Shown one piece after another: positions 9,733 to 38,063 of a DNA stretch of 64,000 nt. Each line of letters starts with the position of its first letter. The stretch's first letter is position 1. Under the pieces are notes generated by a model, which did no database searches, was not told the origin of the DNA, and worked only from the letters and a program-made list of their open reading frames with translations. Both the position numbers and the translations under genes were made by a program. The DNA is from a candidate division WOR-3 bacterium (lineage in GTDB: Bacteria; Hydrothermota; Tepidihabitantia; Tepidihabitantales; Tepidihabitantaceae): NCBI GenBank assembly GCA_024653355.1, contig JANLFQ010000002.1, positions 186,001 to 250,000 on the forward strand. The letters run 5' to 3'.

Positions 9733-9856
9733 ATATGTGGCGATGAGGAGTAATAAAGTTGGAGTTTCAAAAAAGACTAAACTGGCAAAGAAACGGGGAA
9801 GACAAGAGCACAAAATATCAAAGCCCGCATGAGCGGATAAAAAGGGAGGTTATAAA

Positions 9857-10495
9857 ATGTCTGCTCAAAAGAGGCTAAACTGTCTAATAGTGGTGGGGCT
9901 ATTATTTGCCTGCACCATAAATGGACAGTGGCTGAAGACGACAATCCCGGTCGGTGATTATCCTTGTGATATTGCCTGGAACTCAACCAACAACAAGGTC
10001 TACTGCGCTAATGTGTTTAGCGATACCGTCACGGTGATTGATGGTGCAACGAACAGCGTGATTAAAACAATTCCGGTCGGTGATGGTCCCTGTGCTTTTG
10101 CCTATAATCCGATTCAGAACCGGGTTTATGTTGCAAATTATTACGGTTCCAGTATCTCGGTGATTCGTGATTCAATGATTGGCATTGAGGAGGAAGCGGG
10201 GTACAAGAAACAGGAGTCCAAAAATACACTGACCGTGACACCCAACCCCTGCTACGCTGCAACCAGAATCAGATACGGGCTTGCAAAACCCGGCGCAGTA
10301 TCTATTAAGGTTTACAACACCGCGGGCCAATGTGTTAAAACCCTGGTGAGTGCGAAACAGAACCCGGGAATTTACGAACTCAATTGGCAGGGCACGGACA
10401 ACCTCAATCGCAGGCTTAGCCCTGGGATTTACTTCTTAGAAATGGAAGCGGGCGATTATCGGTCGAAATCAAGAATTGTCCTCTTGCAGGATTAA
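9857..10495 (+). CDS. Short secreted YVTN beta-propeller fragment with C-terminal sorting domain
   Basis: 212 residues with a signal peptide, then only two YVTN/NHL-type propeller repeats (KVYCANVFSDTVTVIDGAT and RVYVANYYGSSISVI). About 80 residues of FlgD-Ig/T9SS-type C-terminal domain follow (VTPNPC, VYNTAGQCV, LSPGIYFLEM). Full propellers in this family have 6-8 repeats, so this is unusually short, either a deletion derivative or a multimer-forming unit. Exported to the surface by inference. Start chosen for AGGGAGG at good spacing. A hairpin follows the stop. Confidence 0.8.
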   Translation: MSAQKRLNCLIVVGLLFACTINGQWLKTTIPVGDYPCDIAWNSTNNKVYCANVFSDTVTVIDGATNSVIKTIPVGDGPCAFAYNPIQNRVYVANYYGSSISVIRDSMIGIEEEAGYKKQESKNTLTVTPNPCYAATRIRYGLAKPGAVSIKVYNTAGQCVKTLVSAKQNPGIYELNWQGTDNLNRRLSPGIYFLEMEAGDYRSKSRIVLLQD

Positions 10496-27409: not shown

Positions 27410-27469
27410 TTAGCCTCCTTTTATTAATTTTATGGATGGCTGTATTGCCGTGTCAATGGCAAAATTTTC

Positions 27470-28702
27470 CTATTGTAAAACACTAAGAACATCAATACAG
27501 GATAAAAATTGGATTATATCCGCAACATAATCTTTTATACTATAGTCCTCTCCTGACGACTTAAATATTATTTCCGCAGGGGTCGGTCTTATGGCTAGTA
27601 AATTCTTATCATATTGTTTTATCATCTCAATTACCCTATCTGTAACTTCTTCTAATGTTATATTATTCCTATTTAACTGGAACTTGCTGATTTCTAATAA
27701 AATTTCATTATTTTTCGAAATTGAGATTACATAATTGTTCAAGTTTTTATTTTTCTTGAAATTCTGGTCTAACACCGACCTTTCACTAATCGTAATTATT
27801 TGTCCCAACCATAGGTCATCATACAACATTTCTTCCAGCTGTTTCTTAAAATGCTCAATATCGTACTGTTGCTCGCCCACAAAAAGGCTCTTAATAACTT
27901 CATTTCCATAAACAGCAACAATATTGACCTGTATTCCATCAATTATAAATTCTATAAGAAATGCCTTTTCAGGTAGCTTTTCTTCATAAATATTATGTTT
28001 AATATTTTTATCTTGCAGGGTTTTAATTATGTCGTTTTTACCCCTCAATAGACCATTATAACAGATACCCCATTCTTCATCTTTTTGCGTTGAGGCAGGT
28101 TCTCCTTGAATATCAAATAAGATTCCACCAATGAGAAAAACATTTCTTATGCCAGCATTCTTAATGCAGTTTCTAAAAGATTGATTCCCAATGATCAACT
28201 TTGCGAATTTATTAAACTTCTCCATCATTTCAACCCTTCCTGCAGTACAACCAGAGTAAACCTTCATTTTCAACTCACAAAAAGCAAGGTTATCTTTGCT
28301 CTTGCTAACAATGTCAAATTTTTGTTTTGTAAGTTCAGACTCCTCCAATTCGATAGTTTCTCCTAACCATTGGGGCAGTTTCATCAAAGCAAATTCAAAC
28401 TCCATCCATTCTTTGGTTCCTAAGTCTTCCAATAGTTTGGCGACGAGACTTCCTCTTCCAGCCTGACTATGTTGATAATAGGATGTTATCGTCAATAAAG
28501 ATTCATAAAGGCTATATAAGTTTTCATTCACAAGTGATGCTTGCGATAATCCATGAAAAACCTCATCAAAAATATTAAAAATTGATTCCATACTGAGCGT
28601 TCTTTTAAACATTTCTTGCACTCTCTTTAGGTACATTCTTTTAAGTCCTGCCTCTATTTCATTTCTTGGATCTGTACAAATGAGTAATTTTCTGAGTCGC
28701 AT
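27470..28702 (-). CDS. Putative type II restriction endonuclease (PD-(D/E)XK)
   Basis: 410 residues, very AT-rich. A likely catalytic core sits near residues 128-150: Asp in QKFDIVSKS and ExK in CELKMKVYSG, matching PD-(D/E)XK nucleases. The start is 3 bp downstream of the stop of the DNA methyltransferase gene, which is the usual arrangement of a restriction-modification pair. No specific restriction family or recognition sequence can be named from sequence. The base composition differs sharply from the flanking genes, pointing to horizontal acquisition. Confidence 0.75.
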   Translation of the reverse strand: MRLRKLLICTDPRNEIEAGLKRMYLKRVQEMFKRTLSMESIFNIFDEVFHGLSQASLVNENLYSLYESLLTITSYYQHSQAGRGSLVAKLLEDLGTKEWMEFEFALMKLPQWLGETIELEESELTKQKFDIVSKSKDNLAFCELKMKVYSGCTAGRVEMMEKFNKFAKLIIGNQSFRNCIKNAGIRNVFLIGGILFDIQGEPASTQKDEEWGICYNGLLRGKNDIIKTLQDKNIKHNIYEEKLPEKAFLIEFIIDGIQVNIVAVYGNEVIKSLFVGEQQYDIEHFKKQLEEMLYDDLWLGQIITISERSVLDQNFKKNKNLNNYVISISKNNEILLEISKFQLNRNNITLEEVTDRVIEMIKQYDKNLLAIRPTPAEIIFKSSGEDYSIKDYVADIIQFLSCIDVLSVLQ

Positions 28703-28705
28703 AAT

Positions 28706-30043
28706 CTACACTCCCGCTGGTTTATGACAAATTATTACACTTTCTCCTCTTATTGCTCTATTACGCGCCCCCAACAGTGGATTGAATATCAATTTTTCAA
28801 ATTTAAATCCTGTCTCTTCACAAAATTTCTTAGTTGTCATTGTCGTTGGGATTTTTTTGCCATTAACTGTACTATCACCAATTATGATTGCTAACTTTCC
28901 ACCTGGTTTCAATGCCCAATAAATATTTTTTATGGATTCTTTCAAGTCCTCATAATACATAGCCACTTTTGTAGGCAAGCCACTATAATTACCTTTTGGC
29001 TTCCCATTTTTCATGCCCAGATATTTGGATTCAATTTTTTTCATATCTACACCTAAATAATCATAAGCGATCTTATCTTTGCCAACATAGTCTATTGAAA
29101 AATAATAAGGTGGACTTGTAATGCAAGCATCAAACCTTTCATTCATTTCACTCATATTTTTAAGTTCAAGTATATCCCCTTCTATGATTTTGGCGCGTTC
29201 AAATTTAAGCTCATATTTATCTTTAATTTCCATTGTTTTTTTATAGCAACTTGTTATGTAGTTTAATTTTTCAATGAAGAGCCCTACCTTACCTTTTTTA
29301 TTATATCTTGAGGTCCTTACAAAGGCATCTATAGTATCAAAATATACTGCTAACATTAACTTATGTATTGTAGAATCGGAATGTTTCCATTTTTTATCTT
29401 CTATTGCCTGTAATATATCCTGTAATTCTTTTGTAGTGAAATTTAACTTTTGTTCGTTAATAAATAGCAAATCATTTTTCAATTCAGATAAAACAATCCC
29501 CATTGGCGTAACATCTATGCCTACACTTTTGATTCCCATAAGAGAAGCCTCGTGAGTAGCAGTCCCAGAGCCGTTAAAAGGGTCGAGAATAAGTGAATCA
29601 TGATTCAATCTAAAAGCGTTAATTAAAGTTCTTACAACTCTTGGATAAAATTTTCCCTTATATGGATAAAGATTATGGAAAGCGTAAGCGTTAGTATCGC
29701 CAAACTTATCCACTAAATCAGTATAGAGGGTTGTTTTTCCTTTTACTTTTTCAAGGTGGGCAACCCTTAATCTTACAAATTCCCCATCGCCTTTGAAGTT
29801 AACTACTCTATTTACTGGATCAATTGTATATTCATCAGTTAATCCTTGTAGTTCCAAATCCAAAAATTCTAAATCAGCTAATGTCTGCATCCAGAAGCCA
29901 AAAATTGTATCCCCCTTAGGAAGAATATAATTTGCAAATTCCTTGGCATAAGCTTCTATTATTTCTTCATAAGATGGAAATTCATGAGTTCCAAACATTG
30001 TCGCTTGTTTTGTCTGTTTTTGAAGCAAGGTTTTTTTAGCCAT
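28706..30043 (-). CDS. DNA methyltransferase of a restriction-modification system
   Basis: 445 residues. AdoMet motif I is DPFNGSGTATHEA (about 153-165) and catalytic motif IV is TSPPYYFSIDY (about 308-318), so motif I precedes IV with about 145 residues between, which may hold the target-recognition part. SPPY is typical of N4-cytosine and some N6-adenine enzymes. AGGAGC ribosome site. First gene of a pair with the nuclease gene 3 bp downstream; the host would be protected and foreign DNA cut. AT-rich. Target sequence unknown. Confidence 0.88.
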   Translation of the reverse strand: MAKKTLLQKQTKQATMFGTHEFPSYEEIIEAYAKEFANYILPKGDTIFGFWMQTLADLEFLDLELQGLTDEYTIDPVNRVVNFKGDGEFVRLRVAHLEKVKGKTTLYTDLVDKFGDTNAYAFHNLYPYKGKFYPRVVRTLINAFRLNHDSLILDPFNGSGTATHEASLMGIKSVGIDVTPMGIVLSELKNDLLFINEQKLNFTTKELQDILQAIEDKKWKHSDSTIHKLMLAVYFDTIDAFVRTSRYNKKGKVGLFIEKLNYITSCYKKTMEIKDKYELKFERAKIIEGDILELKNMSEMNERFDACITSPPYYFSIDYVGKDKIAYDYLGVDMKKIESKYLGMKNGKPKGNYSGLPTKVAMYYEDLKESIKNIYWALKPGGKLAIIIGDSTVNGKKIPTTMTTKKFCEETGFKFEKLIFNPLLGARNRAIRGESVIICHKPAGV

Positions 30044-30227
30044 ATTTTGTTAGCTCCTTTTATCGATATTTAATTTAACCAATGATATCTTACTAAATAT
30101 TCTTTTCCTTTTCAAGCGACCAATTGCGTATAACTTTTGCGTATAGCACAAGTTGCCAGAGGCAGGTGAATTCGGGTTAGTGCCGTAGGACACGAAATGC
30201 AAATCATGGATGAGGCAAGGGGCTTTG

Positions 30228-30821
30228 TTATAATGCATCGTCTTCAAACTCTTTCTCCATCAATTTTAACTCCTGTATCAGCCGCTCACGCTTTCTTTGA
30301 TAACCGGCAAGCGTGCGCTCAATCTGGTCATCCTTCTTCTCCCGGGATTGTAATTTTGCAATGATGTGTTCAAGCTCAGTTAGCGCCGACTTTCGAACCC
30401 AATACCGGAAATAACTTTGGACCTCAGTGTCAATCTTCAGAACATCAAACGACCGGCCCTGGCCTATTTCCCGGTCCGTACTGGTGTCATAACAGACCCA
30501 TTGCCCCTTATCGCCCCAGATATAAGCACCCGGTGCGAACTCCTTTGCCAGCTGCGCCACATCGTCCTTTGTGATGTCGGGAATGAAAAGCGAGCGTTCT
30601 GGTACACCGTCCCAATAACCTTTAATCGGGACATATCCATATCCCATTTCCCTGACCCTATCCATCAGTTTTGCCATCGCCGCAAGATTTTCCTTTTTGG
30701 GTCGGTCGCGAAACGCGGACACAATCCCAAAACGCCCGTTTTTGAATTGGTGCGACAACCGCCGCAGTGCGAGTTCTAACAGCATCTTCCCTAAAAAATC
30801 GTCCGGGTGCGCAACAATCAT
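30228..30821 (-). CDS. Uncharacterised protein resembling DUF3293-type small proteins
   Basis: 197 residues. The centre has the layout of DUF3293-like phage and plasmid-associated proteins: FGIVSAFRDRPKKENLAAM, then GYGYVPIKGYW, then ERSLFIPDI and GAYIWGDKGQWV. The C-terminal 60 residues are a charged coiled coil (QSREKKDDQIERTLAGYQRK). Function unknown. Less AT-rich than the flanking island genes, more like the host. Start set by a promoter 8 nt upstream; no ribosome site. Confidence 0.55.
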   Translation of the reverse strand: MIVAHPDDFLGKMLLELALRRLSHQFKNGRFGIVSAFRDRPKKENLAAMAKLMDRVREMGYGYVPIKGYWDGVPERSLFIPDITKDDVAQLAKEFAPGAYIWGDKGQWVCYDTSTDREIGQGRSFDVLKIDTEVQSYFRYWVRKSALTELEHIIAKLQSREKKDDQIERTLAGYQRKRERLIQELKLMEKEFEDDAL

Positions 30822-30829
30822 ATCAACCC

Positions 30830-30857
30830 AATATATTTATGCGTAATCTGCGGTCAA
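30830..30857 (-). promoter_or_regulatory. Predicted leaderless promoter
   Basis: TTGACC, 16-nt spacer, TATATT, 8 nt to the ATG at 30821. Confidence 0.45.
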
Positions 30858-30871
30858 GCAGGATAAACGAT

Positions 30872-31621
30872 TCAGAAAATCTGGCCTTGGTTAAACTGGA
30901 AATTTCTTTGTGTTGCCTTTAAATCATTTTTTCTACAAAAATCTTCAACATCTTTCCAGGTAAGATACCCCCAATTCTTGATGCTCCAGTCTTGAAAATC
31001 AGGTGGATTATAATTTTTAAAGTCCATCTCGTAAAATCTTTTGGCATCTGAAGGATCTACCGGGACCAATGCAACAAAAAATGCATCATCAAGGTACTCC
31101 CCTAATATTATATTTACTGCCCGCAATACTACGCCATTCTTCCCAATTTTTCTGATTTTCTTTGTAGAACACTGTGGGAATGGTATCCCCTTTTCTTTAA
31201 GTTCTTCAAGCGCGGCTGTGCCGCCACTTTGTAATTTTTTGAATAGCCGGGTCTTGTGGTAGAGTTGGGTAAACAGATTGGATGAATCGACTTCATCTTT
31301 GAGCCCGTGCTTAAAATCATTAAATTCTTTGTCAAGAGACCTGAATTTACGATGAGAAGTTTTTACTTTTGCCTCAATAAATACCGATTGCTTATGACCG
31401 TCGTTGTTTATGAGTAATACAGCGTCAGCAACCCCAAAATCAGAGAATGATTGTTCAATTAATATCTTAACATCATTTTTAAGTTTAAAATGGACATCCC
31501 GATATGGAAAGGAAACTAAGGATATAAATTCATTAAGAAGGGCTTGGTTTCCGGGCAAGTAGTTTATCTCATAGAATAGTGAATTAATCATTCCTCTTTC
31601 GGAATAGCCCGTGATTTCCAT
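30872..31621 (-). CDS. Predicted PD-(D/E)XK-like nuclease-fold protein
   Basis: 249 residues. Around residues 63-90 the pattern GVADAVLLINNDG followed by VFIEAKVKTSHRKF gives the D...ExK spacing of PD-(D/E)XK enzymes, with adjacent basic residues. The rest is mixed alpha/beta, ending in a helical region. AAAGGAGGAAA ribosome site. AT-rich, in the defence island, so a restriction or nuclease effector role is inferred, but no named family is recognised and no partner is evident. Confidence 0.55.
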   Translation of the reverse strand: MEITGYSERGMINSLFYEINYLPGNQALLNEFISLVSFPYRDVHFKLKNDVKILIEQSFSDFGVADAVLLINNDGHKQSVFIEAKVKTSHRKFRSLDKEFNDFKHGLKDEVDSSNLFTQLYHKTRLFKKLQSGGTAALEELKEKGIPFPQCSTKKIRKIGKNGVVLRAVNIILGEYLDDAFFVALVPVDPSDAKRFYEMDFKNYNPPDFQDWSIKNWGYLTWKDVEDFCRKNDLKATQRNFQFNQGQIF

Positions 31622-31882
31622 TTTCCTCCTTTTAATTCCACCTTTTCTCTAAAGAATACGTTGCCATCGTTTCACCCAAAGGCTGTTTCCCGGGCATTAT
31701 ATGCAGGGTTAGAGGCACTGCCCGCGCCGCTATTTTAAGCTTTCGACTCGGCATCGCCGAAATGTAATTAATAAAAAATTAAAAGTCAAGAAATGCGAGC
31801 ATTTTTAATTTAGTTTCCCAAGATGCAATTGGGGTCCTACTTTTTGTAATTAAAATGGTTTTTTGCGCCCGGAGCCGTGGTT

Positions 31883-32140
31883 CAGGACTTTTGCGACGAT
31901 TTCGGACGCGGTGGTGTATTCGGGGTAGCGGGTGTAGACATAGCGAAGATGGTCAGGGCGGTTGGGTTTATTTAAATGGCGCGTTTGTTGACCATTAGGA
32001 TGAAGCAAAGCGACATCGACCTTTTATGCTGTTAGGCGAAGAGCGTCAAACATCTTTCTTTTCCCACCTGTAGAGCCTTCTTGCTTTTTCCATACAGTCA
32101 TTATAGGTGGTTTTGCTTCTCAGGAATGAATATTTCTCGT
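31883..32140. repeat. 258-bp direct repeat, copy A
   Basis: Differs from copy B (33161-33418) at about three positions in 258. Includes a displaced 3' fragment of the Panacea-like gene (reading LRYVYTRYPEYTTASEIVAK) and an AIPR 3' remnant. Confidence 0.85.
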
Positions 32141-32157
32141 TGCTAATGTATTCGTGA
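32046..32157 (-). pseudogene. 3' remnant of an AIPR-type gene
   Basis: Reads EYISNEKYSFLRSKTTYND to the stop, matching the C-terminus of the intact AIPR protein (EYINDEKYSFLRSKTTYND). The few upstream codons differ, so it seems to be left from a second, slightly diverged AIPR gene that was replaced or deleted. Confidence 0.6.
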
Positions 32158-32238
32158 AGTTGCTTAAGGGTAATTTAGGTGAGCTTGCAAGGCGAACGCG
32201 GGGGCTAAACGAGCAACAGTATGGCGCCGGCACACACC

Positions 32239-33087
32239 CTAAATTTTTTTCCAATTATAATTAACTAATTTAAAATTACCTATATTTAAACTTGGATACC
32301 CCTTAATATTTTTTAAAACCGAAGCGAACGATCGAATAGTATGATCTTCTATTTGTTGTAGTATACTTGAAAATTTAGGCTTAATAATATCATATCTAAA
32401 AAGATCCCAATCACCTGGCATATTTTGATGCTTTTTTCCTGGTTTAACTCTTTCCCCTAATGTTTCGGCTTTGCCGATATAAAGTAATTTCCTCTTCGTA
32501 TTCGCTAAATAGTATATGACATTAACTGCATTCCGATGTTTTTTAAAATCTTTGACTTTTATCCAATCAGTGCTTCTTTGAATGAGATGTTTTCTATCCT
32601 TTTTATCAAAAATCCAACCAAAAACATTTTCATCTGCAAGTCTTTGGAATAAAGTATTCCATTTGTTCTCTATTTTTATAAAAACTTCACATTTAATTTC
32701 TTTTGCATTAATTGGGTGAAAAATCATAACTTCCTGTTCTCCTCCCTCAAGTTGTGTTCTAAAATGTTTTTTCTTTTTTTCAGTAATATCAAATAGCTCT
32801 TTTTGGCTTTTTATATTTACATAACTTTGGATAAAAGTTTTTCTCAATTTTTTTAAGAAGTCTTTGTTATTGTCCCACCTAATTTGATAAACAGGATGTT
32901 GATTTTTTCTATTCCAAAAACATAGTCTTACAGGAAATTTTTTATTGTCCCATTTTAAAATTACCTCTCTTGAACGGCCAAGTTTAATTTTTTTTCCGGC
33001 TAGAAAGTCATTGACATAATCCTGAGGTATTGTAAAACCCCAGTCCAGCATACTTCGATCGATTTTTTTGTAATATGGTTTATACAT
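32239..33087 (-). CDS. GIY-YIG nuclease-like protein
   Basis: 282 residues, AT-rich. The C-terminal part has a GIY-YIG fold core: VIYYLANTKRKLLYIGKAET, with a following Arg in LGERV as in the catalytic arginine position. The N-terminal half (DWGFTIPQDYVNDFLAGKK) looks like a DNA-binding restriction-type domain of the kind found in Eco29kI-like or ScoMcrA-related enzymes, which is a weak suggestion. AAGGCGG ribosome site. Flanked by the two 258-bp repeats, so it was probably inserted here as a unit of defence DNA. Confidence 0.65.
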   Translation of the reverse strand: MYKPYYKKIDRSMLDWGFTIPQDYVNDFLAGKKIKLGRSREVILKWDNKKFPVRLCFWNRKNQHPVYQIRWDNNKDFLKKLRKTFIQSYVNIKSQKELFDITEKKKKHFRTQLEGGEQEVMIFHPINAKEIKCEVFIKIENKWNTLFQRLADENVFGWIFDKKDRKHLIQRSTDWIKVKDFKKHRNAVNVIYYLANTKRKLLYIGKAETLGERVKPGKKHQNMPGDWDLFRYDIIKPKFSSILQQIEDHTIRSFASVLKNIKGYPSLNIGNFKLVNYNWKKI

Positions 33088-33092
33088 ACTTA

Positions 33093-33226
33093 CCGCCTTT
33101 TATTCGTGGTCTTAATCTAACCACGGGTAGTCAGTCTGTCAACTTTGGAGCCGGTTTGCCCAGGACTTTTGCGACGATTTCGGAGGCGGTGGTGTATTCC
33201 GGGTAGCGGATGTAGACATAGCGAAG
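33093..33226. repeat. 134-bp att-like direct repeat, copy B (displaced 3' end of the Panacea-like gene)
   Basis: Nearly identical to 36311-36445, which is the genuine 3' end of the gene at 36350-37120. Read on the minus strand it encodes LRYVYIRYPEYTTASEIVAK, then VLGKPAPKLTD and the stop in the correct frame, so it is a fragment of that gene separated by over 3 kb of cargo. Confidence 0.8.
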
Positions 33227-33418
33227 ATGGTCAGGGCGGTTGGGTTTATTTAAATGGCGCGTTTGTTGACCATTAGGATGAAGCAAAGCGACATCGACCT
33301 TTTATGCTGTTAGGCGAAGAGCGTCAAACATCTTTCTTTTCCCACCTGTAGAGCCTTCTTGCTTTTTCCATACAGTCATTATAGGTGGTTTTGCTTCTCA
33401 GGAATGAATATTTCTCGT
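33161..33418. repeat. 258-bp direct repeat, copy B
   Basis: Partner of 31883-32140. It carries the 3' terminus of the intact AIPR gene plus its downstream spacer and part of the displaced Panacea-gene 3' end. Confidence 0.85.
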
Positions 33419-35078
33419 CATTAATGTATTCGCGATATTTTCCCCTCTTAAATGTTTCGCTAAAGATAAAACGTATTTTCTTTGAGGCTATATCTTTTAA
33501 CAGTTCCGTGTACTCCCCCTGAATTATCAACGAATCCCCGTACTTCTCAATGTATTCTTTCAACTTTTTGTCGTTCAAAAGACCTTGAATTAACAATGCC
33601 CATAATAAGTTTCTCGACTTAGTCACATAATAATACTTATTTTCACCCCTGCTAAGAATTTCTCCAATGATACTGGTAAGTCTGTACTGTATTTTATAGC
33701 AGAGAATCAATTTTCTGGCATCTACATGGAGATATTTATCCTTAAAAGTACTTTTGTAATAGTTTTCATTTTCAAAAACTTCGCTTATTTTTGACATTTT
33801 ATCAATTTCGCCCTGGATAGCCAGAAGTGTTTGGGCAAATTTTTTGATTTCAATAGCTTTATCATCGTTTATACCCATTTGTTCCAGATCCTCATTAGTC
33901 AAGTTTTCAAAAGCATTTTCCCTTCGCTCGTAATAGATGTGTAATTCTTCTCTAAATTTATCTTCAAAACTCGATTGTATTAAGTCATTGGCCCTTAAAT
34001 TCCAAGGCATGATGGGGTTTTGCCTGTTATTGTTTATTGTGACCTTGTTAAGAAACTCATCCTGTGAAGACTTAACAATACGCGCCATTACTTTTATCTT
34101 GGATAATTTTTCTGATAGTCGAGTATCTGTTTTATTTTCTTCTACAAAGCGCTTCAAAGTCATCACGGTTTGGGCACCATTTAATACCCTTGGTTCAATT
34201 ATCAACATAGTATTGTCGTTTTGAACTAATTGCCCGGCGGTTAACGATATTCCATTGTGATAAAAAGTAAAATTTTCGATGGGTTCTTCTTCGGCGACGA
34301 TTCTCTTCAGTGAACGCTTTATTTCCCGATTTGTTGCTTTTCCTTCGTCTAGTCCTGACCGGATATTCTTGTGGAACAGTTTTTCTCCCAAATCATTGTA
34401 CATTTCAAGCAATTTGTTGAGGGATATAAAGGTTATAATCAGTTCGTTTTCACGGGATGACAATTTTAATGGATTTTCGCACTGAATCTCGTACTTATGA
34501 GATTCTTTCTTTTGAACTACTTCACTTACCAATCTTTGATTGGAGATGTATTGAAAAACTAAGCCAACTTCGCGGTTAAAGAAGCTATTAATAAGATGTG
34601 TTTTACTTTCCAGGTCTTCTTGCAGGTTGGCAAGAACTTTACTCTGCTCGGCTTTTTTGGGGTCGCCATCGAAGACAAAATGGATGAATATTCTGTTAAT
34701 AATATCTCGATTCTCCAAGATGCAACTTCTGAGTTTAATTAATACTTGATTTTTGTTCCGGTCTTGAGGTGGATTACCAAAAACTCTTTCTAAACCATCT
34801 TTTATTAGTCTTTGAAAAGAGTCTTTAAATAACAGGGGGTTTGAGGACCACTTGAACTGGTACAAATACAGATTTTTTCTTTCTTGGTCAAAAAAGAAAC
34901 CATCAATACCGTAGTCGTTTCCCCCAAAGGCAACAAATTGAGCGGCATCATCGAGTGTCAGATTGAATTTCTTGGACAAATACAACAAGCCAAAATAGTC
35001 TTCTTTGCGTCCTTCATACCGCCTACTCAAGTTTTTGTAGGCATCATTGATCTCGGCTTGGGTTATCTTGGTTATCAT
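33324..35078 (-). CDS. AIPR family abortive-infection/phage-resistance protein
   Basis: 584 residues from an ATG 8 nt after GGAGG; a TTG and an ATG further up are rejected because they overlap the ribosome site. The N-terminus has a nuclease-like GNDYGIDGFFFD ... YQFKWS pattern. The central AIPR domain shows the signatures YHNGISLTA, LNGAQTVMTL and NNNRQNPIMPWNLRAND. AIPR proteins are tied to phage resistance and degrade nucleic acid by an (inferred) PD-(D/E)XK mechanism. AT-rich, in a defence island, alone in its cassette. Usual length about 500-700. Confidence 0.88.
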   Translation of the reverse strand: MITKITQAEINDAYKNLSRRYEGRKEDYFGLLYLSKKFNLTLDDAAQFVAFGGNDYGIDGFFFDQERKNLYLYQFKWSSNPLLFKDSFQRLIKDGLERVFGNPPQDRNKNQVLIKLRSCILENRDIINRIFIHFVFDGDPKKAEQSKVLANLQEDLESKTHLINSFFNREVGLVFQYISNQRLVSEVVQKKESHKYEIQCENPLKLSSRENELIITFISLNKLLEMYNDLGEKLFHKNIRSGLDEGKATNREIKRSLKRIVAEEEPIENFTFYHNGISLTAGQLVQNDNTMLIIEPRVLNGAQTVMTLKRFVEENKTDTRLSEKLSKIKVMARIVKSSQDEFLNKVTINNNRQNPIMPWNLRANDLIQSSFEDKFREELHIYYERRENAFENLTNEDLEQMGINDDKAIEIKKFAQTLLAIQGEIDKMSKISEVFENENYYKSTFKDKYLHVDARKLILCYKIQYRLTSIIGEILSRGENKYYYVTKSRNLLWALLIQGLLNDKKLKEYIEKYGDSLIIQGEYTELLKDIASKKIRFIFSETFKRGKYREYINDEKYSFLRSKTTYNDCMEKARRLYRWEKKDV

Positions 35079-35555
35079 CCTCATCACCTCCAGCAATGAT
35101 CTGTATATCTTATAATGACAGATACGGGGAGATATGATTGCAGTGTAGGGTCGATATTATTCACAATTTTTATACCTTTTGTACCCTTTACTGCTTTATG
35201 TACATTTTATATTTAATTTTTCTAAAAAGTCAAGTAAAAAATTGGTTGGGATTACGATTAGAAATAGCACATAAGTTTCCAGCATTAAAGAAGTTTTTGC
35301 GAAGCCCCAATTGGGGTGAGTGCCCTGTAAAATTTTTGTTCTTTGGTCATGGGCTCAATGTCCTGTTTGCGCTATAATGCCTGCCGCTGTCCCGAAGATA
35401 AAGTTTCATCCTACTCCCACCAAATTAACGGTTTAATAAGCTTATAATCCAAATCTTCAATGTTAATTTTTGTCCCGTCTTCAAACTCTACTTCGTCTTC
35501 TTTTATTTTTTCTTAATCCATTTACCGGTAAGATTAGATAAAGTTTCGGCGATGT
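35079..35555. other. Intergenic region, 477 bp
   Basis: No gene. Contains a perfect 12-bp palindrome CCCCAATTGGGG (35305-35316) and copy 1 of a 57-bp repeat (35331-35387). Confidence 0.55.
35331..35387. repeat. 57-bp direct repeat, copy D1
   Basis: Aligns with 36258-36314 with about three differences, starting AATTTTTGTTCTTTGGTCAT and ending CTGCCGC. The pair brackets the small membrane-protein gene pair. Confidence 0.8.
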
Positions 35556-36038
35556 CTATGTTTGGCATAAAAGCTTTGTTACAAGCACTACCAGTAAAAT
35601 GATTGCTAATATCAATGTCCCTACTTGAAGCCAAACAAATATGGTACAAGATTCATTTGGAATATTTTTTTGCATTTCTTTGACCTTTTCTGAAATGTTA
35701 TCTTTATTAATTTCCTCCTTCACAATTCCTTCTACAATAGCGAATTTAGCGCGAGCCCATTTCTTAAAGTAGAAGTAGTCAATAAAAAATTGACCAATGC
35801 CAAAAATTAAAGAGAGGGTTAAAAATATAAAAGCGCATATTAAAATATGTTTATCGCAAACGCTGATTTTCTTGATGAAATCGCCGTTTCCGAAAACAAT
35901 TGCTAAAACCGAAAGGAAGGCGGCGTCAACGAGGATAAGTTGTCTGGTTAGTTCTCTAAAAACTTCATTTGTTTCTTTTCTATAGCTTTCAGCGTAATCC
36001 TCAAATTTTCTCTGTTGTTCTTTAAGATAATCACTCAT
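35556..36038 (-). CDS. Small membrane protein of unknown function
   Basis: 160 residues from the ATG at 36038, which sits 4 nt after the stop of the small upstream gene (36043-36237), so translation is probably coupled. An amphipathic, charged N-terminus (EQQRKFEDYAESYRKE) precedes three membrane helices (about 38-60, 66-95, 133-158). No family is recognised. A longer frame running over the upstream gene is rejected because the ribosome site and the start belong to the other frame. AT-rich, within a repeat-flanked cassette; possible effector of a defence pair. Confidence 0.5.
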   Translation of the reverse strand: MSDYLKEQQRKFEDYAESYRKETNEVFRELTRQLILVDAAFLSVLAIVFGNGDFIKKISVCDKHILICAFIFLTLSLIFGIGQFFIDYFYFKKWARAKFAIVEGIVKEEINKDNISEKVKEMQKNIPNESCTIFVWLQVGTLILAIILLVVLVTKLLCQT

Positions 36039-36042
36039 TATT

Positions 36043-36237
36043 TTACTTGCGGTCAGCCCTATTTGTTCCACCGCCTTGGTTGCTTTGCGAATCTGGTTTG
36101 TCACCCCCGGAGGTTCCTGTTGCATTCCCCGATGAATCGGGTTTATGATTCGGTGGCGGCGGGTCTGTATAAGTTGGATTTCCCAACCCCTTGTCCCTTT
36201 CTTCTGCTGTTTTTTTTGGGTTTTTGTCATCTATCAT
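36043..36237 (-). CDS. Small disordered, Pro/Gly/Asn-rich protein
   Basis: 64 residues after AGGAGGTAAGG at ideal spacing to the ATG. Composition is polar and low-complexity (PPPPNHKPDSSGNATG, QSNQGGGTNRADRK), so it is probably disordered. No homology is recognised. Forms a two-gene unit with the membrane protein immediately downstream. It may instead be an upstream cistron that mainly serves to couple translation. Confidence 0.4.
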   Translation of the reverse strand: MIDDKNPKKTAEERDKGLGNPTYTDPPPPNHKPDSSGNATGTSGGDKPDSQSNQGGGTNRADRK

Positions 36238-36257
36238 ATCCTTACCTCCTAAAACTT

Positions 36258-36314
36258 AATTTTTGTTCTTTGGTCATAGGCTCAATGTCCTGTTTGCTAT
36301 ATAATGCCTGCCGC
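36258..36314. repeat. 57-bp direct repeat, copy D2
   Basis: Partner of 35331-35387. It runs directly into the 134-bp repeat copy C, so the two scars abut. Confidence 0.8.
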
Positions 36315-36445
36315 CTATTATTCGTGGTCTTAGTTTAACCGCGGGGGCATTAGTCTGTCAACTTTGGAGCCGGTTTGCCGAGGACTTTTGCGACGATTTC
36401 GGACGCGGTGGTGTATTCCGGGTAGCGGGTGTAGACATAGCGAAG
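36311..36445. repeat. 135-bp att-like direct repeat, copy C (native 3' end)
   Basis: Covers the last 32 codons and the downstream flank of the intact Panacea-like gene. It repeats at 33093-33226 and in part at 31871-31958. Confidence 0.8.
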
Positions 36446-37120
36446 GAGCTGGGTTAAGGGGAGGGAGGCGAAGTTGGTTTTGACAATCTGTAAGCCGGGG
36501 AGGAGGTTTTTTTTCTGCCGGGAGGCGGTCTGGGCGAGAAGGCGGGCGATTTGTTTGCCCTGCGGGGTGAGGGTGAAGGCGAGGTTGACGGCGTCCAGGC
36601 GTTCGGTGGCGGTGATGCCGGAGTTGAGGGTGGCAAGGAAGGTTGCCAGGGCGCGGTCAAGGTTGATGATGGGCACACCTTCGGGGTCAAGGGGATGGGC
36701 GGTGATGATGCCGAGGTCGGTGAGGGTTTTAAGGTCGGTGTAGAGTTCGGGGCTGAATGGCCCGAGTTTGTAGGGGACAAAGCGGTAGGGGTTTTTTATG
36801 ACTGTGTCAAGGGCGAGTTCCTGGAAGGCGATGAAGAGGAGTTTGGTGATGCGGGTGATGCCGAGGATGGGTTCGCAGAGTTTGCCCGAGATGCCGCGCA
36901 GGTAGAGGAGGAGTAAAAGGATGTCTTTGCGGTCGGTAAGGCGGATGCTTGCGGGACGGGTTTTGAGCTGGGCAATGCGCCGGGAGTAGGTCCGGCGGTC
37001 TTTTTCGGTGAGTCTGGTCTGGAGTTTTTGCCAGAGGGGGCTGGGGTCAAGTCCGTTCAGGTAGTGTTCAATTTCCTGGCGGAGCTGGTTGAGGAGGAAT
37101 TGAATCTGTTTATCTTGCAT
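36350..37120 (-). CDS. Panacea/DUF4065-like (YwgA-type) protein
   Basis: 256 residues from an ATG 6 nt after GGAGGG. The middle carries the Panacea/SocA-like signature: GITRITKLLFIAFQE, then FVPYKLGPFSPELYTDL and LTDLGII. This domain is found in SocA/PanA antitoxins and YwgA-like proteins, where it binds partner proteins or DNA. The start overlaps the end of the ECF sigma gene by 11 bp. Its 3' end is the site where defence cargo has been inserted repeatedly. No separate toxin gene is adjacent; the sigma factor is the obvious partner. Confidence 0.7.
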   Translation of the reverse strand: MQDKQIQFLLNQLRQEIEHYLNGLDPSPLWQKLQTRLTEKDRRTYSRRIAQLKTRPASIRLTDRKDILLLLLYLRGISGKLCEPILGITRITKLLFIAFQELALDTVIKNPYRFVPYKLGPFSPELYTDLKTLTDLGIITAHPLDPEGVPIINLDRALATFLATLNSGITATERLDAVNLAFTLTPQGKQIARLLAQTASRQKKNLLPGLQIVKTNFASLPLTQLLRYVYTRYPEYTTASEIVAKVLGKPAPKLTD

Positions 37121-37697
37121 ATTTTTCCCTCCGGATGCGGCGCTGGCGCATCTTTTGTAGTTTTTTGATGCCGCGGTTGAGGCGCATCGCCGCGGCGTTT
37201 TCCGGGATGCCGAGGGCACGGGCAACTTCGGGGAGTTTTAAGCCGAGGATATGGCGCAGGGTGATTGCCTCGCGCTGGGTCCGGGGCAACTGGTTGAGGT
37301 CGTGGTAGAGGTGTTTGAGTTCTGCGGCGGTTTCAAAGCGGGTTTCAAGGGGCGGGGTGGCGAGTTTGTGTTCCGGGCAGGTTTCCAGCGGTAGGGTGGG
37401 CAGGCGGCGTTTGTGTGCGCGGTGGTGTTTGCGGATGCGGTTTAAGGCAACCCGGTAAACATAGGTGGACAGTTTTGCCTCACCGCGGAACTTTTTTATG
37501 CCCCGGGCAAGGTCTTCAAAGGTTTCAATCGCACAGTCTTCGGCTTCCGCGGTGTCGGCGATGTGGGATAAAGCAAGCGCCATTACCGGTCGCCAGAAGG
37601 TGTGGAACAGTTTTTCAAAGGCACCGGGCTTTTCCGCTTTGAGTTCCTGGACGAGTTGGGCATGTTCATCGGGCACCGGTAGAGGATATTGTGCCAT
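37110..37697 (-). CDS. ECF-type RNA polymerase sigma factor
   Basis: 195 residues. Region 2 (about 20-90, with AEDCAIETFEDLARGIKKF and TYVYRVALNRIRKHHRAHK) and region 4 (about 130-185, LPRTQREAITLRHILGLKL then VARALGIPENAAAMRLNRG) are clear. It directs RNA polymerase to special promoters. It overlaps the Panacea-like gene at its 3' end and follows the 118-residue protein gene by 9 bp. These three genes form one operon. A classical membrane anti-sigma factor is missing; one of the two neighbours may take that role. Confidence 0.9.
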   Translation of the reverse strand: MAQYPLPVPDEHAQLVQELKAEKPGAFEKLFHTFWRPVMALALSHIADTAEAEDCAIETFEDLARGIKKFRGEAKLSTYVYRVALNRIRKHHRAHKRRLPTLPLETCPEHKLATPPLETRFETAAELKHLYHDLNQLPRTQREAITLRHILGLKLPEVARALGIPENAAAMRLNRGIKKLQKMRQRRIRREKYAR

Positions 37698-37706
37698 TTG
37701 GTGTCG

Positions 37707-38063
37707 TCAAGGTAAGAGGGCACGGACATTATGTTCTATCTGTTCGAGGACGGTTTCGTTTAAGCCCTGTTTTGCCCAGTACTGGCGCAGAATTTGGATT
37801 TGCCGGTCGCCGGTTTTGCCGGAGTAGCGCCGGGCGGTTGCCCAGACTTTTCTGCCGTAGGTGAGGTAGTGGACAAGAAATAGGGAGGGGACATTTTGTT
37901 CGGCGAGGACGGTTCTTACCTTCTGGTCAACAAGGGCAATCCGGCTCTGGGCAATCGCATAGTTGTCTATCATCTGTTTTATCGTTTCGCTGGGCAGGAC
38001 CCCTGCCATATTGCGGACGACTTTTCTTCGGTAGCGTTCAATTGCGTCTTTTGTTTTGCGCAT
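37707..38063 (-). CDS. Small basic helical protein of unknown function, first gene of the sigma operon
   Basis: 118 residues after AGGAGAAAC. Mostly helical, basic and without a membrane segment or known domain (RKTKDAIERYRRKVV, QKVRTVLAEQN). Its position, 9 bp before the ECF sigma gene, suggests a role in sigma control or DNA binding, by context only. Confidence 0.6.
   Translation of the reverse strand: MRKTKDAIERYRRKVVRNMAGVLPSETIKQMIDNYAIAQSRIALVDQKVRTVLAEQNVPSLFLVHYLTYGRKVWATARRYSGKTGDRQIQILRQYWAKQGLNETVLEQIEHNVRALLP

Follow-up and report, generated by a model that had tools for sequence, protein, structure and literature searches.

The window, a stretch of 64,000 nucleotides from a candidate division WOR-3 bacterium (G000:C2:186001-250000), contains an operon in which the gene of an ECF-type sigma factor is followed by a gene encoding a Panacea-like protein. 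We put the probability at about 55% that the two products form a sigma/anti-sigma module and that, independently of this, the operon's 3' end is a hotspot for insertions. The direct basis for the module is the constant pairing of the two genes, the overlap of their frames, the location of the second gene in the slot of anti-sigma genes, co-inheritance at family level and a Panacea-type fold. From these observations we infer that the Panacea-like protein binds the sigma factor, that this binding is inhibitory and that it responds to a cue. All features of the operon and the adjoining island are compiled in Table 1.

Table 1. Features of the operon and the adjoining island (positions in the window).
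Feature	Position	Strand	Basis or remark
118-aa helical protein (P0003)	37707..38063	-	ORF; first gene of the operon in this genus
ECF-type sigma factor, 195 aa (P0002)	37110..37697	-	Pfam Sigma70_r2 and Sigma70_r4_2 above cut-offs; TIGR02937
Panacea-like protein, 256 aa (P0001)	36350..37120	-	Family alignment, transitive PF13274 link, PADLOC, AlphaFold fold
A1: 3' end of Panacea-like gene, source of the repeats	36352..36445	-	Repeat D2; G001 synteny stops within it at 36373
Sigma70-like promoter of first cargo gene; -35 TTGACA within last Panacea-like codons	36332..36361	-	
Post-stop sequence of Panacea-like gene	36304..36345	-	Repeat D4: 83% copy after A2, 33086-33127
Spacer before first cargo gene	36258..36314	-	Repeat D3: 95% copy at 35331-35387, before AbiU/AIPR gene
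Cargo: 224-aa protein with hydrophobic segments (read from sequence), 37% GC	35556..36230	-	ORF, GC
Cargo: AIPR/AbiU-like abortive-infection protein, 36% GC	33324..35096	-	PF10592 6e-23; PADLOC AbiU 1.8e-29
275-nt stretch: AbiU/AIPR gene end, spacer and part of A2	33161..33435	-	Repeat D1: 97% copy at 31883-32157
A2: stranded gene-end copy, 94 nt, 97%, 3 differences, frame kept, 54% GC	33133..33226	-	
Cargo: GIY-YIG-like protein, 29% GC	32239..33087	-	Weak PF01541 match, E 0.03
A3: second stranded gene-end copy, 65 nt, 98%	31884..31948	-	
Island remainder: 249-aa protein, DUF3293 protein, type II methyltransferase (28706-30043), 410-aa protein	27470..31621	-	

Pairing of the ECF gene with the Panacea-like gene

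The sequence-only reading had described a three-gene operon with an 11-nt overlap, and the open reading frames were found at exactly these positions, all on the minus strand. The gene of the 118-residue protein is separated from the ECF gene by 9 nt, and the ECF gene overlaps the gene of the 256-residue protein by 11 nt. On the opposite flank of the operon, tRNA-Val and groES/groEL are located. The sigma factor, with its 195 residues, matches Sigma70_r2 with 44.2 bits and Sigma70_r4_2 with 48.3 bits and thus qualifies as an ECF sigma factor.

The Panacea-like family is present in 12 of the 28 genomes of the order; the remaining 16 are devoid of the pair. An ECF gene was found directly upstream in 12/12 carrier genomes, so the pairing is not accidental, and these 12 loci of one order constitute the sample for the pairing as well as for the hotspot. 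Overlaps of 4-32 nt exist at eight of the 12 loci, and the frames overlap in G027, too; gaps of 2 nt and 72 nt were found in G019 and G020, respectively. In the assembly of G022, the reading frame of the ECF gene is interrupted (L027:12400-13003), and its 3' part still reaches the Panacea-like gene. The outer neighbours of the pair differ between genomes, and no toxin gene is a constant neighbour of the Panacea-like gene across the 12 loci. G025 and G026, which belong to one genus, have retained the pair, and no adjacent toxin or defence gene was recognised there. Weak family matches in three other phylum genomes proved to be either fusions of Panacea with DUF488 or a Panacea-like gene next to one of HD type (domain names from sequence resemblance), and an ECF gene is absent at these three loci.

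The ECF tree and the Panacea tree recover the same family-level groups. In an expanded ECF tree, the Panacea-paired ECFs are located on one side of a branch with a weak support of 32/81; hence, a single origin is unproven and the pairing might have arisen repeatedly. The earlier proposal would have been refuted had most homologous sigma operons lacked the Panacea gene, which was not the case. The proposal also envisaged a new type of sigma control. A constant partner in the anti-sigma slot agrees with this; however, the pair is specific to the order (12/28 genomes) and we therefore regard it as a local variant of sigma control, not as a widespread one.

The 118-residue protein had been listed as part of the three-gene operon; a role as dedicated third partner had to be rejected. 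It is one of a family of small helical proteins that occur in multiple copies, about 2 to >20 per genome, in 27 of 147 phylum genomes, every one within this order; furthermore, G006 and G010 have no such gene upstream of the pair. Relatives adjoin other ECF sigma genes in G005 and G027, so that some link to ECF sigma factors is possible, yet not that of a dedicated partner. Further relatives were found, for example, at loci L171, L172, L177, L182 and L183.

A Panacea-like protein in the anti-sigma slot

For the 256-residue protein, no Pfam match was obtained at E-values up to 10 and no NCBIfam match, and PF13274 directly matched none of the 12 order relatives. The 12 proteins of the order, with 29-77% identity of the relatives to the window protein, share the pattern GITR..K.LF / Y.F.PYK.GPF..E.Y.DL / L..LL.Y.Y..YPEYT..SE in the family alignment. 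A search of public contigs yielded 0 loci with the window sequence alone and 39 loci with the family alignment; the family profile retrieved archaeal and bacterial Panacea-type proteins. One of these, a Natrialba protein (tblastn 5e-15), matches PF13274 SocA_Panacea with 31.7 bits at a cut-off of 25.7, while others scored below the cut-off. Additionally, the PADLOC defence candidate PDC-M19A matched the window protein directly (5.9e-13). The AlphaFold model with a mean pLDDT of 85 consists of two long N-terminal helices followed by a mixed Panacea-type core, and the closest solved fold is DarG of the DarTG toxin-antitoxin complex (7yk3; probability 1.00, E 4e-3). The matched chain is the part of DarG that contacts DarT. 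All matches from PDB sequence searches with family profiles were weak; 7yk3_B was one of them. In contrast to DarG, the protein has no macrodomain, and no DarT-like gene was recognised adjacent to it.

The label "Panacea" of the sequence-only reading is thus justified by fold and remote homology, reached through intermediates and a common fold, and not as a direct match to the family model. The transitive PF13274 link, PDC-M19A and the DarG fold led us to accept the protein as a diverged Panacea-type protein.

Two side observations concern Panacea-like proteins elsewhere. A search of BFVD returned a Panacea-like fold in uncharacterised proteins of Sulfolobus spindle-shaped virus 4 and ellipsoid virus 1 (probability 1.00). 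Panacea-like loci of Planctomycetales (L088:9632-12931), Chloroflexi (L090:1490-4360) and Clostridia (L092:7077-9403) apparently have a common operon layout, in which a protein of ~133-210 aa is followed by one of 440-472 aa; those tested gave no Pfam match, and this layout is possibly an undescribed system.

The other ECF genes of the phylum were compared with respect to their downstream genes. In 25 of 29 cases the downstream gene encodes the anti-sigma zinc motif H-x3-C-x2-C; of the remaining four, two are followed by a membrane protein without the motif (L135, L196) and two are located at a contig end. All four downstream genes tested matched zf-HC2, one of them just below the cut-off. Some of these 29 ECFs belong to genomes harboring the Panacea pair as well (G001, G014, G020, G025). 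Because the ECF gene is located directly upstream at 12/12 loci and a zinc-finger gene follows 25/29 of the other ECFs, the Panacea-like gene occupies the anti-sigma slot: it lies directly downstream of one ECF gene and is co-inherited with it.

The operon had been proposed to lack a membrane anti-sigma gene. This was confirmed, as the 256-residue protein showed neither a zinc-finger anti-sigma match nor a clear transmembrane segment, membrane segments being judged by hydrophobicity and not by a dedicated predictor; values of 1.8-1.9 were reached inside the Panacea core of three diverged relatives (G019, G021, G022). The pair resembles ECFs with class I zinc-finger anti-sigma factors in its two-gene operon, with the regulator directly downstream and usually overlapping, and in the N-terminal helices that precede a further domain. 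The family differs from class I (ASDI) in that no Pfam zf-HC2/ASDI match was found in it, a membrane anchor is not evident and a Panacea-type core takes the place of the further domain. In an hhalign comparison (probability 0.75%), no homology was detected between the N-terminal helices and the phylum's zinc-finger anti-sigma proteins.

As an antitoxin domain, Panacea is known for its high promiscuity, and those who described it suggested that it can serve as a sensor. In multidomain PanA antitoxins, sensing is attributed to Panacea and neutralisation to another segment. The window protein shares the Panacea-type core with PanA antitoxins (PF13274) by transitive sequence similarity and fold, and an additional N-terminal segment in front of Panacea with multidomain PanA (PMC10440598); however, its constant partner is a sigma factor instead of a toxin, and on its own it falls below Pfam detection. 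In the literature searched, no paper was found that names both Panacea and an ECF sigma factor. Because of its position, its coupling to the ECF gene and the protein-binding record of Panacea antitoxins, the Panacea-like protein most likely acts as a soluble anti-sigma factor or sensor, which would bind the sigma factor.

Copies of the gene end in the defence island

The defence island postulated next to the operon is real, as Pfam and PADLOC matches were obtained among the neighbouring genes. Synteny between the window genome and its sister species G001 stops at position 36373, inside the 3' end of the Panacea-like gene, and resumes at 27429. The 9-kb island in between (27430-36372) is absent from G001; DNA comparison revealed that only gene-end copies are common to both, and the cargo between the flanks differs. 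The G001 island comprises AbiJ, GmrSD, AbiEi/AbiEii and a methyltransferase together with an MjaI-type restriction enzyme. Across the genomes, the gene downstream of the pair varies and includes those of AbiEii, MNT-type, DUF3800 and AbiJ-type proteins; some of the cargo represents complete restriction-modification genes. Most of the window cargo has a GC content of 29-37%, whereas the window as a whole has 52% and the stranded copies have 54-56%; the copies therefore resemble host sequence enclosed in foreign DNA.

Copies of the 3' end of the Panacea-like gene were found stranded in 4 of the 12 genomes, each resembling its own host gene, with 97-100% identity in G000, G010 and G020 and 86-88% in G027. 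In the window, the 275-nt repeat D1 flanks the insertion with the GIY-YIG gene. The G010 copy (84 nt, 99%) is located one gene away, and synteny with G006 breaks at the very nucleotide where the identity of the copy stops. G020 carries its copy of 76 nt past a DUF3800 gene; in G027 the copy lies past a nucleotidyltransferase gene and is accompanied by older fragments. Among 299 ORFs of these loci, detached 3'-end copies are almost confined to the Panacea-like gene and its islands, other 3'-end repeats being mostly tandem repeats, paralogues or secondary repeats within islands. With non-homologous content between fixed flanks and copies of the target gene end, the site has the properties of an insertion hotspot.

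Three other origins of the copies were dismissed. A diversity-generating retroelement does not fit, as the differences show no adenine specificity and none of the island genes was recognised as a reverse transcriptase; a dispersed genomic repeat does not fit either, as the gene-end sequence is found solely at this locus in the window genome. In a tandem duplication of the whole module the genes between the copies would not differ as they do.

Further repeats were observed at related loci. In the G001 island (L019:18199-18955, L163:2402-4332), the last part of the MjaI-type restriction gene is overlapped by a direct repeat of 300 nt (99%); moreover, two neighbouring ORFs have most of their first 120 nt in common (92%). 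Tandem units of 102 nt are located directly downstream of the Panacea-like gene in G006 (L021:9387-10286), inside an ORF of 299 aa on the opposite strand. In a euryarchaeon (L120:4403-8701), the 3' end of a Panacea-DUF488 gene (102 nt, 92%) is copied 2.1 kb downstream together with the post-stop sequence. These copies flank Fic- and RelBE-like genes and are followed by another toxin-antitoxin-like pair, so the same kind of stranded end occurs in an archaeon. In Ardenticatena, it is the 5' region of a Panacea-DUF488-type gene (61 nt, 95%) that is duplicated upstream (L122:8461-8523 and 9845-9910).

The putative promoter at the gene end (Table 1) shows 10/12 consensus matches, a score equalled by 1% of shuffles, and the same arrangement is present after A2. 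Sigma70-like promoters follow the gene end in G000, G010, G020 and G027; no outstanding promoter signal was found after the gene end in G001 and G006, nor after the G020 copy. The location of the -35 element inside the last codons may be the reason why the gene tail has remained associated with the next promoter. ECF-type promoters repeated before the cargo were considered as well and were not supported, the sequences after the gene end looking sigma70-like; an ECF motif upstream of the operon could not be established.

Defence genes of foreign origin, often equipped with sigma70-like promoters of their own, would have entered right at the end of the Panacea-like gene, and every entry would have rebuilt the gene tail, stranding the older tail downstream. 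The most likely route would be homology-facilitated illegitimate recombination, in which the conserved gene end serves as anchor and the second junction is formed illegitimately. Such recombination was proposed for T6SS immunity arrays of V. cholerae and Rhs loci (PMC5361080). These arrays and the orphan modules of Rhs/CDI loci (PMC5361080, PMC3150448) show the same insertion at a conserved gene end and the same downstream displacement of the older 3' end; in contrast, the target here is the sigma-Panacea operon, and the cargo consists of defence genes instead of effector/immunity pairs. Defence hotspots flanked by core genes, e.g. in P. aeruginosa (PMC10250203), have the same variable defence content at a fixed place, whereas at the present locus the boundary is intragenic and serial insertions are documented by the gene-end copies.

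The main rival for the hotspot is a recombinase acting in trans, which would integrate at the 3' end of the gene as at tRNA genes and turn the stranded ends into att sites. Several copies indeed begin at the same codon (L-R/K/E-Y) and finish at or near the stop codon, and the G020 copy is 100% identical over its 76 nt. However, a PF00589 search revealed no tyrosine recombinase gene in the window island, which thus lacks the integrase of a tyrosine-recombinase genomic island. Only two PF00589 genes exist per genome, by their number probably XerC and XerD, and in the window genome both are located on another contig. Furthermore, copies in G010 and two fragments in G027 have other start points, and a different repeat, the one of 275 nt, flanks the second insertion in the window. 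Finally, the target gene diverges widely between genera and each copy matches its own host, so that an element would need a host-tuned att site. We regard integration at att sites as unlikely, albeit as an explanation to be taken seriously.

Function of the pair

The variable genes at the operon end bear on the function of the Panacea-like protein, too. It could be the antitoxin of an ordinary PanAT system, directed against whichever toxin is currently encoded downstream, with partners swapped at the 3' end and the ECF merely controlling expression. Panacea antitoxins exchange toxin partners freely (PMC8832971, PMC10440598), the downstream gene does vary, with AbiEii, MNT-type, DUF3800 and AbiJ-type proteins among its products, and the first cargo gene of the window encodes hydrophobic segments. 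We nevertheless judge this improbable: several cargo genes have sigma70-like promoters of their own and are thereby uncoupled from the Panacea-like gene, others are complete restriction-modification genes, and in G025 and G026 the pair exists without such a neighbour. The constant partner is the ECF.

Quite improbable is also a role as co-activator or DNA-binding partner of the ECF instead of an inhibitor. Winged-helix regulators resembling MarR and PadR turn up among the family's weak matches, both by fold and in Pfam; however, DarG, an antitoxin, is by far the best structural match, and the gene sits where anti-sigma genes are found. That the pair is a hitchhiker without joint function, adjacent by common descent of unrelated genes, would agree with its presence in 12/28 order genomes only but is hardly credible, since adjacency and mostly overlapping frames were kept across 29-77% identity and differing outer neighbours.

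In the sigma/anti-sigma module that we prefer, the Panacea-like protein would be a soluble regulator whose variable N-terminal helices hold the sigma factor inactive. Its Panacea core would sense a cue and then free the sigma factor, comparable to the split between sensor and neutraliser in multidomain PanA. A more far-reaching idea, which we consider rather doubtful, is that a Panacea domain was recruited as phage-sensing anti-sigma factor and that the operon end became a landing site for collecting and exchanging anti-phage genes, with gene tail and next promoter travelling together.

Through a conserved pairing with a sigma factor, the partners of Panacea would come to include the transcription machinery, and the ECF/Panacea pair would offer a clean system for asking what Panacea senses. 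Serial acquisition of defence genes is usually inferred only from differences in content; here, the stranded gene ends are a readable record of successive defence-gene acquisitions at one chromosomal site.
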